Positions 1,649 to 63,566 of a stretch of DNA of 64,000 nt are shown in pieces. This DNA comes from Anaerolineales bacterium. Lineage in GTDB: Bacteria; Chloroflexota; Anaerolineae; Anaerolineales; Villigracilaceae. Position numbers and translations under genes: made by a program. The stretch spans positions 1 to 64,000 of the forward strand of contig JADLBX010000045.1 in NCBI GenBank assembly GCA_020847435.1. The letters run 5' to 3'. How positions within the stretch are numbered: the stretch's first letter is position 1; every line of letters starts with the position of its first letter. Under the pieces are notes generated by a model, which saw only the letters and a program-made list of their open reading frames with translations, ran no database searches and was not told where the DNA came from.

Positions 1649-1705
1649 ATACTGCGTACTACGTAATCCGTACTACGCAGTACGCAATACGAAATACGCA
1701 GTATG
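1649..1705. repeat. Near-tandem TACGCAATACG-type repeat
   Basis: The npdG-cofE gap is almost wholly made of variants of a 9-10 base word (GTACTACGCA, GTACGCAATAC, GAAATACGCA). The last unit runs into the cofE start codon. Related words occur at about 18196-18209 and, in frame, inside ggt at 60696-60724. Confidence 0.7.
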
Positions 1706-3660: not shown

Positions 3661-3682
3661 CGTAACGCGACATTTATGTCGC
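3661..3682. repeat. REP-like palindrome, left flank of RAYT
   Basis: CGTAAC followed by the stem-loop GCGACAT-tt-ATGTCGC. The whole 22-base unit recurs in exact inverted orientation downstream of the transposase gene at 4336-4357. Confidence 0.85.
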
Positions 3683-3696
3683 CATTAGGAACCTCC

Positions 3697-4332
3697 ATGC
3701 CTGATGTTCGCTACAAACGCAATCTGCCGCATATTCATCCAGAAGGTTATCCGCTATTCGTCACAATCCGATTGGCTGATTCCCTGCCGCTTGAGATTCT
3801 CGCCGAACTCAAAGCCCAACGTGAACACGAATTGAACTCAAAGCAGGGCTTATCTGCGTACGATATCGAGAAAAAGCATTTTGGACGATTCGACAAATGG
3901 CTTGATCGTTGTGAGTATGGTCCTCAATGGCTTGCGAGTGACGAGATTGCCAACCTTGTCATGGAGCGCATCCTTGCAATGGATCAGGTTCGCTATACTC
4001 TCTACGCATTTTGCATTATGCCCAATCACGGACATTTACTATTCGACTCGCTCGAAACCTCTCACGGACAACATAAAGGCAGGAGCGCCAAATATCCTGT
4101 CACTGAAACTCTCAGACTATTGAAAGGCAGTACGGCGCGCGCCTGCAATTTGAAACTGCATCGTAACGGCGCATTCTGGCGCCACGAAAGTTACGACCAC
4201 TATGTCCGCGACGATGAAGAATTGGAACGCGTCATCAAATACATCTTACACAATCCTGTAAAGGCAAGTTTGGTAAAAGAATGGACGGAATGGAAATTTA
4301 CTTACATCAATCCCGAACTTGGGTCGTGGTAA
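3697..4332 (+). CDS. REP-associated tyrosine transposase (RAYT, Y1 family)
   Basis: 211 residues from the ATG at 3697, which has AGGA six bases upstream. The HUH-type catalytic motif is PNHGHLL (about residue 109), usually MPNHVHLL in this family. The likely catalytic Tyr lies in ESYDHYV near residue 168, followed by IKYILHNPVKA, a hallmark C-terminal segment. RAYTs are single-copy IS200/IS605-like transposases that cleave REP palindromes. Exact inverted palindromes flank the gene, with an additional copy on the right. It interrupts the F420 cluster between the nitroreductase and cofD and may be active or domesticated. There is no frameshift. Confidence 0.9.
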   Translation: MPDVRYKRNLPHIHPEGYPLFVTIRLADSLPLEILAELKAQREHELNSKQGLSAYDIEKKHFGRFDKWLDRCEYGPQWLASDEIANLVMERILAMDQVRYTLYAFCIMPNHGHLLFDSLETSHGQHKGRSAKYPVTETLRLLKGSTARACNLKLHRNGAFWRHESYDHYVRDDEELERVIKYILHNPVKASLVKEWTEWKFTYINPELGSW

Positions 4333-4335
4333 AAA

Positions 4336-4379
4336 GCGACATAAATGTCGCGTTACGCGTAGCGCGACATTTATGTCGC
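4336..4379. repeat. REP-like palindrome pair, right flank of RAYT
   Basis: An inverted copy of the left flank (4336-4357) is followed by CGTAGC-type spacer bases and another direct copy of the stem GCGACAT-tt-ATGTCGC (4364-4379). Two facing REPs form a BIME-like unit. It ends 17 bases before the cofD start. Confidence 0.85.
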
Positions 4380-13266: not shown

Positions 13267-13352
13267 TACCGCGAAGAGCGCGAAGAACGCAAAGGAAAGA
13301 AGAAAGAGGAAAGATAAAGGATGAATGATGAAGGGTGAAGGATAAAAGAGGC
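13267..13352. repeat. Half hairpin element plus GATGAAGGATGA words
   Basis: ACCGCGAAGAGCGCGAAGAACG (one arm of the CGAAG family) is followed by AAAGAGGAAAGATAAAGG and repeated ATGAA/GATGAAGG words up to the speB start. The second arm seen at other loci is missing here. Confidence 0.65.
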
Positions 13353-15890: not shown

Positions 15891-15959
15891 ATGATGATTG
15901 CATTCTCCTTAACAAACCGCCTGCGGCTCGGGCAAGCCAAAGGCGGTTTGGGTTTTTAA
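15891..15959 (+). other. 22-codon reading frame coinciding with terminator
   Basis: GGAGG lies five bases before ATGATG. The frame reads through the whole terminator hairpin and stops inside the T-run. A TATAAT also overlaps its start. It could be a leader-like peptide or chance. Confidence 0.2.
15913..15957 (+). terminator. Intrinsic terminator after tsaC
   Basis: CAAACCGCCT pairs with AGGCGGTTTG, with an inner GGCT/AGCC stem, followed by GGTTTTT. Confidence 0.75.
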
Positions 15960-15961
15960 GA

Positions 15962-16070
15962 GCGGTAAACAAGTAAAAACGTAAACAGGTACACAGGTCT
16001 TAGAAGACGTGTGTACCTGTATTCTTGTCTACCTGTTTCCTTGTTTACGTGTCTACCTGTCTACGTGTTT
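15962..16070. repeat. Decamer-like GTxxACxTGT array with inverted halves
   Basis: Left half: GTAAACAAG, GTAAAAACG, GTAAACAGG, GTACACAGG. Right half in inverse: GTGTACCTGT, TGTCTACCTGT, TTGTTTACGTG, TGTCTACCTG, TCTACGTG. The halves meet at TCTTAGAAGA and can form a long hairpin. Shorter relatives lie at 48648-48686 and about 57635-57672. Confidence 0.7.
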
Positions 16071-17111: not shown

Positions 17112-17199
17112 TACCACGAAGGACACAAAGTACACAAAGGAAAACTGCGGGGTTGCTTTTCGCTCGTCATTCGACAAACCTTCGTGACCTTCGTAACCT
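17112..17199. repeat. Hairpin element, ACGAAGG/ACAAAG version
   Basis: Left arm ACCACGAAGGACACAAAG... (17113-17140) and right arm CCTTCGTGACCTTCGTAACC (17179-17198) are imperfect inverse copies. The same architecture with other bases occurs at 23283, 41843 and 60384. Confidence 0.75.
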
Positions 17200-17213
17200 G
17201 TCTCGAAAATACC

Positions 17214-17297
17214 ATGTCACTCTGAGGGAGCGGTGTTTGCGACCGAAGAGTCTCTTATTTCGGCGGTAGAGATGCTTCGCTTCGCTCAGCATGACAT
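17214..17297. repeat. ATGTCA...TGACAT palindromic repeat
   Basis: ATGTCACTCTGAG at the left and CTCAGCATGACAT at the right bound about 84 bases with GAGTCTC/GAGATGC-type inner pairing. It belongs to a very widespread bacterial repeat type (flanks read like TGTCATTCTGAGCG). Confidence 0.7.
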
Positions 17298-17317
17298 TTT
17301 TTGGATCAATTTTAGAA

Positions 17318-18124
17318 TTACAAATGTCGCAGAAACGATTCGGGGCTGTTCAAAAAATCTTTCGTGAGTTGGACGTGTTCGAGTTCGTTGTATTGTACTT
17401 CCCGAATCCCGCCGTTTGCAAATTGAAGGATTTGAGCATTGGGCGTGGCGAGAATGATCGGCGAATGGGTGGCGATGATGAATTGCGCATTCTGTTGAAC
17501 CATGTGCATGACCGCCGAGATGAAGGTCAATTGACGGGCGGGCGAAAGCGCGGCTTCGGGTTCGTCGAGCAGGTACAAACCGTCGGGGACGAAGCGGGAT
17601 TGAAATAACGCCAGAAAGGATTCGCCGTGCGAGCGCGTGTCGAGTCCGTCTCCGTAGCGGCGCTGCATCGCATCCAATTGTCCACGATACGGCATACTCG
17701 CCAAGTCTTCGGCGTATTTGGATCGCCCTTGATATTCCTCTTTGACATTATTCAGTTCTCTTTCAAACTCTTCCTTCGTCTGCCGCATGGATTTGGCGTA
17801 GCCGAAGAAATCCTCCGCTCGGAGGAAGAAACCTTTGCGCGTGCGCTTCGTCCATGCGAGGCGGAAATATTGAGCCAATTTGCGAAGCGGCGCGAGCGAC
17901 TTATCCGTCCGCACGCTCTCGCTTCCAACGGCGATCGATTCGGCGGCGCAGGCAATCGTTTCGAGGATCGTTGACTTTCCCGATCCGTTCTCGCCGACAA
18001 AGAACGTGACGGGCGACTGAAACCGAATCTCACGCAGGGATTTGACGATCTCCAAATTGAACGGAAACGAGTCTGCGTCTCTCGAGTTAAATTCACGAAC
18101 GGTGATGGATTGAAGATGAATCAT
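17318..18124 (-). CDS. AAA/ABC-type ATPase (COG3910-like)
   Basis: 268 residues with a full ABC-type ATPase set: Walker A GENGSGKST (about residue 44), a short helical insert (about 105-160), Walker B YLLDEPEAALS (about 188) and an H-loop IIATHSPII (about 218). It matches the stand-alone predicted ATPases related to RecF/OLD-type proteins. No nuclease or partner gene is adjacent, and no function is assigned. A role in DNA repair or defence would be speculation. Confidence 0.8.
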   Translation of the reverse strand: MIHLQSITVREFNSRDADSFPFNLEIVKSLREIRFQSPVTFFVGENGSGKSTILETIACAAESIAVGSESVRTDKSLAPLRKLAQYFRLAWTKRTRKGFFLRAEDFFGYAKSMRQTKEEFERELNNVKEEYQGRSKYAEDLASMPYRGQLDAMQRRYGDGLDTRSHGESFLALFQSRFVPDGLYLLDEPEAALSPARQLTFISAVMHMVQQNAQFIIATHSPIILATPNAQILQFANGGIREVQYNELEHVQLTKDFLNSPESFLRHL

Positions 18125-23282: not shown

Positions 23283-23353
23283 TTACCGCGAAGAACGCGA
23301 AGGTCGCAAAGAAAAAAATAGATCTTCGCGCGCTTTGCGGACTTCGCGGTTAA
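23283..23353. repeat. Hairpin element, CGCGAAG/CGCAAAG version
   Basis: Left arm TTACCGCGAAGAACGCGAAG... and right arm ...CTTTGCGGACTTCGCGGTTAA are inverse copies around an A-rich loop. It is the closest relative of the half element at 13267. Confidence 0.75.
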
Positions 23354-41842: not shown

Positions 41843-41939
41843 AACCACAAAGGACACGAAGCACACTAAGGTTGAACGAATGATGAACGAATAGCATTTC
41901 CTTGGGTTTTCCTTCGAGTACTTTGTGACCTTTGTGTTT
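41843..41939. repeat. Hairpin element, ACAAAGG/ACACGAAG version
   Basis: Left arm AACCACAAAGGACACGAAG and right arm CTTTGTGACCTTTGTG lie in the pdhA-pdhB gap, overlapping the pdhA stop. The core of the gap has GAACGAATGATGAACGAA words. Confidence 0.75.
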
Positions 41940-60020: not shown

Positions 60021-61722
60021 ACGCGAGAGTTCCCGCGCACCCATCCGCCCTCGGATCGCTTCCGCCGCACAGCGCTCCGAATTCATCGCGCAGAATCACC
60101 TGTCCCCTGCCGAACAGGGCGCGCTCATAACCGCTGACCGAATACACGGGGTGACCTAATTTTTCCAATCCAGTAAAAGTTTCCTGCGACATTCCCTCTT
60201 CGATCGCAACCCGCCCGCCCGATTCTTCCGCGTCGATGCAAAAGCGCGGACGATCCAACGCGGCTTGCGGATCGAGCCCATCGTCCACGAGCGCGGAGAG
60301 GACTTGCACGTGTCCCTGCGGTTGCATGAATCCGCCCATCACGCCGTAGGAGGCGTAGAGCGCTTCGTCAAAGTTGTTGTTTGAACCGCTAAGTTCGCTA
60401 AGATCGCTAAGATTTTCTTTATTCTTCGCGCCCTTTGCGAGCTTAGCGGTTAATTTCGTTACCATCGCAGGGATGATCGTATGATACGGTCGCTTGCGAG
60501 GCGCCAGACAATTGGGATGATGTGGGTCGAGGCTAAAGTTGTATCCGCGATTTTGTAATGTGAAGCCCCAGCCTTTCGGAACGATGCCTGTGCCAAAGCC
60601 CATGTAATTGCTGTTGATGAACGAGCAGGCGTTTCCGAATTTGTCCACGACGCTGAGATAAACGGTGTTCGATGAATTTACAGGCGTACCTCGTTCGATA
60701 TTGCGTATTGCGTATTGCGTGTTGATTAACTTGCGGCGGTCGGCGGCATAACTTTTTGACAACAACTCTTTGATTGGAATATTGGAAAACGCGGGGTCGG
60801 TCACGTACCAGCGCGCATCGGCGAAGGCTAAGCGCAATGACTCGATCATCAAGTGAAGTCGCTCTACTGATAGCGAGTTTGATTCAGAGAGATCGAATCC
60901 TTCGAGAATGTTCAAGGCGATCAACGCAGTGATGCCTTGTCCGTTGGGCGGACATTCGTACACACGATAGCCGCGATAATCCACTGAGATCGGCTCCTCC
61001 CACGTGGACGTGTGCGCGGCAAGATCATCCAGCGACAGGCAACCGCCCGCTTCATTCACCACACGGACGATTGATTCGGCAATCTCGCCTTGATAAAACG
61101 CCGACGCGCCGCGCTCGGCAATCGTTTTGAACATGCGCGCCAAGCCGAGGTTGCGGAAGATTTCGCCCGCGTTCGGTCCGCGCCCGTCAATCGTCAACTC
61201 GTGTCCGTTCGGCGCGGACTTCAATTGTCGTTCCACGCCGCGCTTCCAAAAATGCGACGTGATCGGCGCGACGGGAAATCCCTCTTCGGCGAGTCGAATC
61301 GCAGGCGCGAGAATCTCCGTCATCGGGAGCGAACCGTGTTTTTGAATCAGGTCGAACCAGCCCGCGCACGCGCCGGGGACGGTCACCGTGTGAGCATGGA
61401 ATGGAGGAATCGAAGATACGAATCCGTCGCGCTTTAGCCGATCAAGCGTAAGGGCAGAAGGAGCGCGTCCCGATCCGTTCAAAGCGGCGACGCGTTTCGT
61501 ATCCGCAGAAAAATACAGCGCGAACATGTCGCCGCCGATGCCCGTCGAAGTCGGCTCGGTCACGTTGAGCGCCGCGCCCGCCGCCACTGCCGCATCTGCC
61601 GCGTTGCCGCCTTTGGCGAGAATTTCCAAACCAGCGGCAGTCGCAAGCGGTTGCGACGCGGCGACGATTCCGTTTTTTGCATACACAGGTGAATGGTTGA
61701 GTTGGAAAGTGGATTGGGACAT
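60019..61722 (-). CDS. ggt: Gamma-glutamyltransferase-family protein
   Basis: 567 residues of the Ntn-hydrolase GGT family; the nucleophile Thr lies at about residue 350 in SSNTVYLSVVD (usually TTHFSVVD). GGNAADAAVA and GIGGDMFALYF near the N terminus are conserved. No signal peptide is visible, unlike periplasmic GGT, so it may be a cytoplasmic relative. Two repeat-encoded stretches interrupt the protein: NTQYAIRNIER just before the nucleophile and TKLTAKLAKGAKNKENLSDL-type residues near 425. Start at MSQSTF. Confidence 0.85.
   Translation of the reverse strand: MSQSTFQLNHSPVYAKNGIVAASQPLATAAGLEILAKGGNAADAAVAAGAALNVTEPTSTGIGGDMFALYFSADTKRVAALNGSGRAPSALTLDRLKRDGFVSSIPPFHAHTVTVPGACAGWFDLIQKHGSLPMTEILAPAIRLAEEGFPVAPITSHFWKRGVERQLKSAPNGHELTIDGRGPNAGEIFRNLGLARMFKTIAERGASAFYQGEIAESIVRVVNEAGGCLSLDDLAAHTSTWEEPISVDYRGYRVYECPPNGQGITALIALNILEGFDLSESNSLSVERLHLMIESLRLAFADARWYVTDPAFSNIPIKELLSKSYAADRRKLINTQYAIRNIERGTPVNSSNTVYLSVVDKFGNACSFINSNYMGFGTGIVPKGWGFTLQNRGYNFSLDPHHPNCLAPRKRPYHTIIPAMVTKLTAKLAKGAKNKENLSDLSELSGSNNNFDEALYASYGVMGGFMQPQGHVQVLSALVDDGLDPQAALDRPRFCIDAEESGGRVAIEEGMSQETFTGLEKLGHPVYSVSGYERALFGRGQVILRDEFGALCGGSDPRADGCAGTLA
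60384..60453. repeat. In-frame hairpin element inside ggt (GCTAAG version)
   Basis: Left arm AACCGCTAAGTTCGCTAAG and right arm CTTTGCGAGCTTAGCGGTTAA are inverse, with the same layout as 23283-23353 but with GCTAAG in place of GCGAAG. The reading frame of ggt is kept. Confidence 0.75.
60696..60724. repeat. In-frame TTGCGTATTGCGTATT words in ggt
   Basis: Tandem ATTGCGTATTGCGT words, inverse of the word GTACGCAATACG, reading as NTQYAIRNI within ggt. Confidence 0.6.
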
Positions 61723-63214: not shown

Positions 63215-63247
63215 TAAAAAAACAGAGTTACCTCACGGCAACTCTGT
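63215..63247 (-). terminator. Terminator for the cold-shock gene
   Basis: On the minus strand ACAGAGTT pairs with AACTCTGT and is followed by TTTTTTTATG. Confidence 0.7.
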
Positions 63248-63271
63248 TCGGTTCGCAAAACTTAATCAGTC

Positions 63272-63484
63272 TTACGAGACGGGCACCACGTTGGCGGCTT
63301 GCAGACCTTTGGGGCCATCCTCGACGGAAAACTCCACTTTCTGCTCGGCTTCCAACTTGCGGTAGCCATCGGACTGGATGGCGCTGAAATGCACGAACAC
63401 ATCCTCGCCGCCGTCACGGCCGATAAAGCCGTAGCCCTTGGTGGCGTTGAACCACTTGACCGTTCCAACATATCGTTCTGACAT
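63272..63484 (-). CDS. Cold-shock protein (CspA family)
   Basis: 70 residues. RNA-binding motifs RNP1 KGYGFIGRD (about residue 16) and RNP2 DVFVHFSAI (about 28) are intact, with the usual [11 protein letters not shown] start. It binds single-stranded RNA or DNA and melts RNA structure. AGGAG is on the minus strand about ten bases before the ATG. Confidence 0.95.
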
Positions 63485-63566
63485 CGTACAACATCTCCTG
63501 CTGAAAAAATTTTATGCCCGCCGCCTCCACGCTTTCAAGGCAAGCCGGGCAACGAGCGCAAGATTA

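Follow-up and report, generated by a model that had tools for sequence, protein, structure and literature searches.

The 64-kb window (the whole stretch of Anaerolineales DNA that was analysed) contains several hairpins whose arms are built from short repeated words, one of them inside a gamma-glutamyltransferase-like open reading frame (Table 1) that we take to be ggt, a name that comes from the original prediction. The four hairpin loci and the half copy reported in that prediction are all present, and the reading frame bears out its claim that the copy at 60384 lies in frame inside the gene. No curated Rfam family was matched at any window hairpin, nor in seven hairpin loci (two tRNAs lie nearby), and a terminator scan of the ggt hairpin found nothing, which says little since the scan was limited to loops of 3–8 nt. 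Other features of the window include a dispersed repeat of about 125 bp directly after the 17112 hairpin (17195–17320), with many copies across the genus, and a minus-strand match to the cspA thermoregulator at 63218–63549, barely over the gathering score. Additionally, a REP-associated tyrosine transposase-like gene at 3676–4332 (with 4336–4379) has the palindrome GCGACATAAATGTCGC on both sides, and this insert is missing in a near relative (G124).

Table 1. Word hairpins of the window and the open reading frame that hosts one of them.
Feature	Position	Strand	Description
Third word-like hairpin, TACGCA/TACGTA	1649..1704	.	
GC-type hairpin, left arm alone	13267..13294	+	Partner arm absent in the window
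Second word family, GTAGACAG/GTAAACAAG, ~8 nt	15959..16064	.	Inverted arrays; word by eye that of IVP locus L068
AC-type word hairpin	17112..17199	.	Right arm of ~2 units only
GC-type word hairpin	23284..23351	.	Complete, 3 units in each arm, 12-nt loop
AC-type word hairpin	41843..41939	.	Loop of 41 nt
Gamma-glutamyltransferase-like ORF, 581 aa	60019..61764	-	Hosts the 60384 hairpin in an in-frame, insertion-tolerant segment
GC-type word hairpin	60384..60451	.	3 units in each arm, loop of 12 nt, in frame within ggt

The arms of these hairpins follow the layout AACC-RC-N-AAG-NN-CRC-N-AAG-NN-CRC-N-AAG, inverted in the right arm, in which R is G (GC-type) or A (AC-type) and the unit [G/A]C-N-AAG-NNC is repeated three times in each arm. 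The claim that the word differs by locus therefore stands in so far as there are two classes, and falls for CGCGAAG and GCTAAG, which are separated by a letter at a free position. Arms with at least 19 of the 21 fixed letters occur 36 times in 463 kb of the source genome and 0 times in one first-order shuffle (best 18), and the whole genome holds 114 matches to the exact two-word GC-type pattern and 32 to the AC-type pattern, with 0 matches for the reversed-pattern control of each. The copy number of the GC-type pattern ranges from 0 to 114 across 61 genomes of the bacterial family. When copies were folded, as the original prediction had proposed, z-scores between -3.3 and -7.4 were obtained (five hairpins folded as DNA and, for both strands, two as RNA). 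The design implies a ladder of 3-bp helices interrupted by 1x1 and 2x2 loops, and this structure ranks first for L027 and close to first for others. One and the same GC-type hairpin (L013, L014, L023, L029, L039:16185–16252) is found near an end of contigs C8, C10, C13 and C18, as well as at an internal position in C12; since four contigs stop close to it, it may be part of a longer repeat at which the assembly breaks. The loop that separates two GC-type arms at L007 and L035 contains nested hairpins of another word family (ACACGGATT, CACAGAT).

It had also been claimed that the right arm always matches the left arm of its own locus. This holds for the fixed letters and for the G/A class letter, which agrees in 0.894 of comparisons within loci vs 0.688 between them (47 source-genome hairpins; the test is uninformative for 20 hairpins of G124, all GC-type), and it does not hold for the free letters, so the proposed comparison of within- and between-locus identity gives a higher value within loci for the class letter and a match below chance for the free ones. 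In 60 GC-type hairpins (40 from the source genome and 20 from G124, identical-arm hairpins being counted once) the seven free positions match from left to right at a rate of 0.112 vs 0.303 when permuted, with 0 of 3000 deals as low, and 54 of the 60 have at most one matched free letter vs 20 expected. The outermost free letter matches between the arms of all three complete window hairpins, yet in only 17% of the 60. The effect is mainly one of the folded register: in-register comparisons gave z between -1.8 and -4.0, strongest beside the loop (49 hairpins after thinning), with match rates of 0.04–0.08 beside the loop vs 0.14–0.20 at the outside, off-register comparisons gave -0.5 to +2.4, and within-arm comparisons were near expectation save one of ten (z -2.6). 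The depleted in-register pairs are A.T (15 seen vs 36 expected), G.C (8 vs 24), T.A (4 vs 14) and C.G (10 vs 15), and the non-Watson-Crick C.A is also depleted (5 vs 14).

A founder artefact, in which one mismatched founder inserted in both directions, was considered and rejected, as the effect persists in mutually dissimilar representatives (0.101 vs 0.276, n about 31); in one dissimilar set of 14 hairpins the avoidance was reached in 7 of 5000 shuffles. Relatedness and orientation do not explain it. The avoidance is seen again when other genera of the family are sampled (16 hairpins, 0.196 vs 0.316, 8/5000; 16 of 20 stretches gave a hairpin meeting the cut, some with a decayed arm) and is marginal in 14 hairpins from other species of the genus (189/5000). 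For the AC-type it is not significant overall, either in 7 hairpins (226/3000) or in 19 (147/3000, five of them mostly G-class), the latter showing it only at the inner four positions, and this class is weak evidence because a founder effect is visible there by eye (TACACAAAG opposite GTCACGAAG). In 14 viral-contig hairpins, whose free letters are mostly A and whose loops are often longer, the avoidance is absent (0.592 vs 0.562), and thus the generality of avoided pairing to other hosts is not supported. The structure-based selection suggested originally is supported with the opposite sign, since the free positions avoid Watson–Crick pairing in register. The same prediction had argued that the loci are not simple copies of one recent element, and the free letters are indeed nearly randomised between loci. 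That the free letters stay unpaired indicates that the folded state of the hairpin counts: it may serve as a substrate, or it may pose a danger that mismatches soften, or both.

The history of individual sites was followed in relatives. For ggt, 18 genomes of the genus were searched and 11 gave 12 comparable copies, of which three carry this hairpin (the source genome, G135 and G130), two carry almost nothing at the site (G125, G133) and seven carry another insert, four of these a CTCACCCC...GGAGAGGGG repeat (both G134 copies, G055, G128) and three other inserts (G120, G124, G132). The three hairpins differ in their free letters and keep nearly all fixed letters, and since their loops are alike they are probably one old insertion. 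By eye, this one in-frame position has accepted at least four unrelated repeat families across species of the genus (L299–L308, L314), which makes it an insertion-tolerant coding hotspot. The site of the half copy at 13267 holds a complete GC-type hairpin in G121, an AC-type hairpin in G128 and G055 and no hairpin in other relatives; because of the complete hairpin in G121, the half copy is probably a decayed one. Site 23284 has a GC-type hairpin in G124, G130 and G135 and an AC-type one in G128. In G124, the spacer of the 17112 hairpin contains a different word array (CAGTNAT, 7 nt) and that of the 1649 hairpin contains a hairpin of another word. At the 17112 site, CAGTNAT arrays in G127 and G130 are accompanied by a short gene cassette (about 0.6 kb), by eye a putative toxin–antitoxin-like pair.

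Eleven source-genome hairpins were placed in G124 stretches, part of which had been chosen for carrying hairpins: four are inherited with few changes, two are rewritten inside (one of them at C12:24837), two lie in a tandem duplication of which G124 has one, two sites are without such a hairpin in G124, and at the eleventh G124 carries an element of the AC-type some 0.3 kb long. In each of the two rewritten inner hairpins 8 of 14 free letters changed, with 0 and 1 of 42 fixed letters changed and flanks 92–98% identical. Taken with the contents of the other sites, these comparisons indicate that the content of a site changes through insertion or loss, through duplication and through exchange. 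In the spacers compared, neither a precise insertion end nor a target duplication could be made out. Upstream of the hairpin at 970, the G124 stretch (L295) has several tandem units containing the end of the adjoining tRNA (GCGGAGGGGATCGAA), which are absent at that site in the window's genome; a tRNA was found in L016 by the Rfam scan.

Relatives of the hairpins that carry a gene were found in the source genome, where one tandem cluster of window-type hairpins encloses a GxxExxY gene (L065). This genome has six PF13366 (GxxExxY) and five PF05635 (IVP) matches, named GxxExxY and four helix bundle protein in NCBIfam, and by eye inverted word arrays lie around 10 of the 11 genes, the word being each locus's own; at the eleventh (L066) the right array alone was seen. 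Example words are CACAGAG, CGCAGATGAA, GATTAGCGAA, ACACGGATAA and CGCTAAG at GxxExxY loci and GTGAGGC, GTAGACAGG, GTAATTGG, AAGGATGA and GTAGAAA at IVP loci. By eye the IVP gene, which in one case has an internal stop, lies between inverted repeats at all five IVP loci, with words other than those of the window hairpins. None of the 11 loci (L061–L071) has an Rfam match at the gathering score. For 7 of 10 gene-bearing loci the word recurs, over 543 kb of the genome, at 5 to 12 separate sites beyond its own locus, recurrence being low for L063 (2 sites) and for L067 and L071 (1 each), and reversed-sequence controls gave 0 to 2 pairs. Among 121 sampled genomes of the phylum, 29 have GxxExxY and 45 have IVP.

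The agreement of the two arrays was scored by local alignment of the left flank with the inverted right flank, the own pairing being ranked against pairings with other loci. It comes first in its row at 9 of the 11 source-genome loci. In a phylum sample, which left out loci shorter than 3200 bases (3/35 GxxExxY, 2/34 IVP), it is top in both row and column at 12/32 GxxExxY and 14/32 IVP loci, with about 1 expected by chance, and exceeds the 99th percentile of between-locus scores at 9/32 and 0/32 respectively, numbers that are low because the flanks of some different loci are alike. A many-phyla set began with 80 GxxExxY loci, two of which are archaeal; three were dropped for a short flank, and in the remaining 77 the own pairing is first in its row at 31 (chance about 1) and above the 95th percentile of between-locus scores at 43. 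Additionally, 43 of 50 GxxExxY loci of the family (three shared with the phylum sample) reach an arm score of at least 15 in a comparison run with no null. All own-pairing counts are rough both ways, as some words are common to several loci and a few scores reflect coding sequence; high scores at L110 and L086 in the phylum sample and at L205 and L233 in the many-phyla set come from coding or low-complexity matches and not from words. The wider claim that arm words differ between loci yet agree within them thus holds for gene-bearing relatives that were invisible to its author.

The spacing of the words follows the gene family. Among loci with an arm score of at least 15, which leaves out 6/32 in each class, the word lag is 9/10 nt at 21/26 GxxExxY loci and 7/14 nt at 20/26 IVP loci; a lag of 9 or 10 is also found at 35/65 GxxExxY loci of the many-phyla set, which has side peaks at 8 and 12. 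Word similarity also correlates with protein identity in three sets (r = 0.347, 0.352 and 0.223, with 0 of 1000 permutations as high in each). Pairs with more than 50% identity account for most of the correlation, and the IVP set, which includes one wrongly picked ORF (L085, not IVP), has 13 such pairs among 299.

Fifteen diverse GxxExxY sequences share invariant residues D67, E77-x-K79 and Q91-x3-Y95, and the motif D, ExK, QxxxY is the signature of PD-(D/E)XK nucleases of the Cas4/lambda-exonuclease group. The predicted structure of a many-phyla relative (pLDDT 94.6, pTM 0.87) has as its nearest Foldseek matches the Cas4 protein SSO0001 (E 2.1e-3, TM up to 0.51) and LHK-Exo/lambda exonuclease, the best matches spanning E values of 2.1e-3 to 9.5e-3 and TM of 0.45–0.51; no Foldseek match to the model had E below 0.001 and no PDB match to the sequence had E below 0.2. 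On the model and the motif, GxxExxY is a predicted minimal PD-(D/E)XK nuclease with a Cas4/lambda-exonuclease-like fold.

Dependence of the hairpins on a resident matching GxxExxY gene was considered and is not supported. GC-word arms on both sides of GxxExxY were found in the source genome, G140 and G154. A survey of GC-type arms covered 12 genomes with at least 19 GC-type matches and part of their GxxExxY loci, and in 9 of the 12 no such arms were found at the loci examined (one locus in G124, four in G064, four in G168, four in G176, four in G169, two in G139, two in G177, one in G157 and two in G018). In another genome (G183) the GC-type pattern matches 28 times and the AC-type pattern 91 times, with no GxxExxY match; this genome, together with those nine, indicates that a resident matching gene is not needed. 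GxxExxY is present and GC-type hairpins are absent in G046 and others, and G165 and G096 have neither the gene nor either hairpin pattern. For a simple scheme of masters and copies, G183 and the nine genomes count against and G165 and G096 count for; the driver may be a lost, foreign or another protein.

Hairpins with arms of one repeated short word, inserted in many bacterial genomes, look like a little-described class of mobile element. The reading we prefer, to which we give about an even chance, is that they are the gene-less miniature form of widespread small insertion elements whose ends would be inverted arrays of a short degenerate word. It is supported by arrays that flank genes and agree within a locus, a word spacing that differs by gene family, a word that tracks the protein and gene-less hairpins that are numerous, patchy between species and located where relatives have an empty site or another repeat. 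The recurrence of gene-locus words elsewhere in the genome, the Cas4-like fold, the two genomes lacking both gene and hairpins and, in this family, the unpaired free letters also count for it. Long forms would carry one small gene between the arrays, either the GxxExxY nuclease or the IVP four-helix-bundle protein. One protein or complex would read both ends, hence the same word at both, and each element lineage would read its own word, hence the differences between loci; reading through the fixed letters, as recognition letters, would account for both of these and for a protein-dependent spacing. The free letters would be kept mismatched so that the folded hairpin stays an irregular ladder of 3-bp helices that the machinery can manage and that would be a poorer target for host enzymes that attack perfect palindromes (SbcCD for DNA, RNase III for RNA). 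Copies would spread to tolerated sites, in-frame ones included, and now and then overwrite each other. A stronger form of this reading is tentative and somewhat more doubtful than not: a mobile element class with word-array ends in which spacing is set by the encoded protein (9–10 nt for the Cas4-like mini-nuclease, 7–8 nt for the four-helix bundle, with its pentameric known relative), in which the letters between recognition letters are barred from pairing in the folded ends, at least in this family, and in which specificity would be written in the word as a readable code.

The alternative that survives best, a serious contender that we rate somewhat short of even, is survivorship: hairpins with perfect arms would be lost, through SbcCD-type nucleases or through deletion during replication, leaving only mismatched copies, the words would be read on duplex DNA and the hairpin would be a liability and not a tool. 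That avoidance weakens from the loop outwards and is absent from the viral-contig hairpins with their often longer loops fits a danger to be softened; survivorship alone leaves unexplained the near-perfect state of the other 21 pairs of each hairpin. It is compatible with the preferred reading, and both can hold. Use by the host is unlikely by comparison. The hairpins would then be terminators, stabilisers of mRNA 3' ends or nucleoid sites acting as RNA or DNA, host selection would keep the fixed letters and the enclosed genes would be passengers, in line with orthologous sites that keep fixed letters while free letters change, with strong folding on both strands and with a placement, in a simple ORF picture, of 6 of 9 hairpins between ORFs and 3 inside one. 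Against this stand the range in copy number among related genomes, orthologous sites that are empty or hold another word or repeat, the in-frame copy inside ggt and a gene-family-specific word spacing that host use does not explain.

Copying between the arms of one locus, by gene conversion or template switching as first proposed, is very improbable. Class and fixed letters agree within loci and two of the 11 hairpins placed in G124 are rewritten inside, the latter supporting exchange between loci; arm-to-arm copying would equalise the free letters, and these avoid matching, mainly in the folded register. Least probable of all is that these are REP elements moved by resident RAYT-type (Y1) transposases, for although the genome has five Y1_Tnp matches, one of them in the window (best model a REP-associated tyrosine transposase, below its cut-off), up to 500 bp from each of the five the best inverted match is another palindrome or a weak match and not a word array, and by eye no word hairpin ends in GTAG or CGTC.

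If the preferred reading is true, GxxExxY and IVP, widespread small families of unclear role, would be given a testable function at the ends of the elements that carry them, and many of the hairpin repeats in public genomes would share one explanation. Locus-specific word–protein pairs, which number hundreds or more (at least 591 candidates), would then be a natural data set for protein–DNA specificity, and if the word is a specificity code, the way in which each protein reads it could emerge from a comparison of many loci. Avoided pairing is a negative covariation, in which structure is revealed by what stays unpaired, and the ggt site is a coding position that repeatedly accepts different repeats in frame. 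No paper tying GxxExxY or IVP genes to word arrays was found in a literature search with incomplete coverage of subscription journals and preprints.

Among known systems, MITEs resemble the hairpins in being short and gene-less with inverted ends, a patchy copy number and insertion differences between species. The ends of a MITE are letter-by-letter copies of those of a transposon, whereas the copies described here have only part of their letters in common; as for ends shared with an autonomous element, a word common to hairpins and GxxExxY arms is found in the source genome, G140 and G154 and was not seen at the examined loci of the nine other hairpin-bearing genomes. GxxExxY keeps the D, ExK and QxxxY residues of the Cas4/RecB/lambda-exonuclease nucleases and has its nearest fold among them, and it differs from them in a length of only about 120 residues and in the lack of a close sequence or fold match. 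REP/REPIN elements with RAYT and TIRtrons with TIRYT are dispersed hairpins with gene-less and gene-bearing forms in which stem pairing matters for cleavage (PMC3733652), and the word hairpins are likewise numerous and dispersed, with and without a gene. REP/REPIN elements have a GTAG/CGTC tag and a Y1 transposase; here no such tags were seen, the aligned word hairpins beginning with AACC and ending with GGTT by eye, copies flank none of the five Y1_Tnp matches, another gene lies between the arms and the arms consist of three degenerate words. The intervening sequences (IVSs) of 23S rRNA have inverted repeats that form a stem around a small four-helix-bundle gene (S23p/IVP), occur sporadically and have been proposed to be selfish elements (PMC4990558). 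The IVP loci share with them the protein family and a gene between inverted repeats; known IVSs lie inside rRNA genes, unlike the 11 loci without an Rfam match described here, where the arms are tandem arrays of a locus-specific word and many copies are gene-less.
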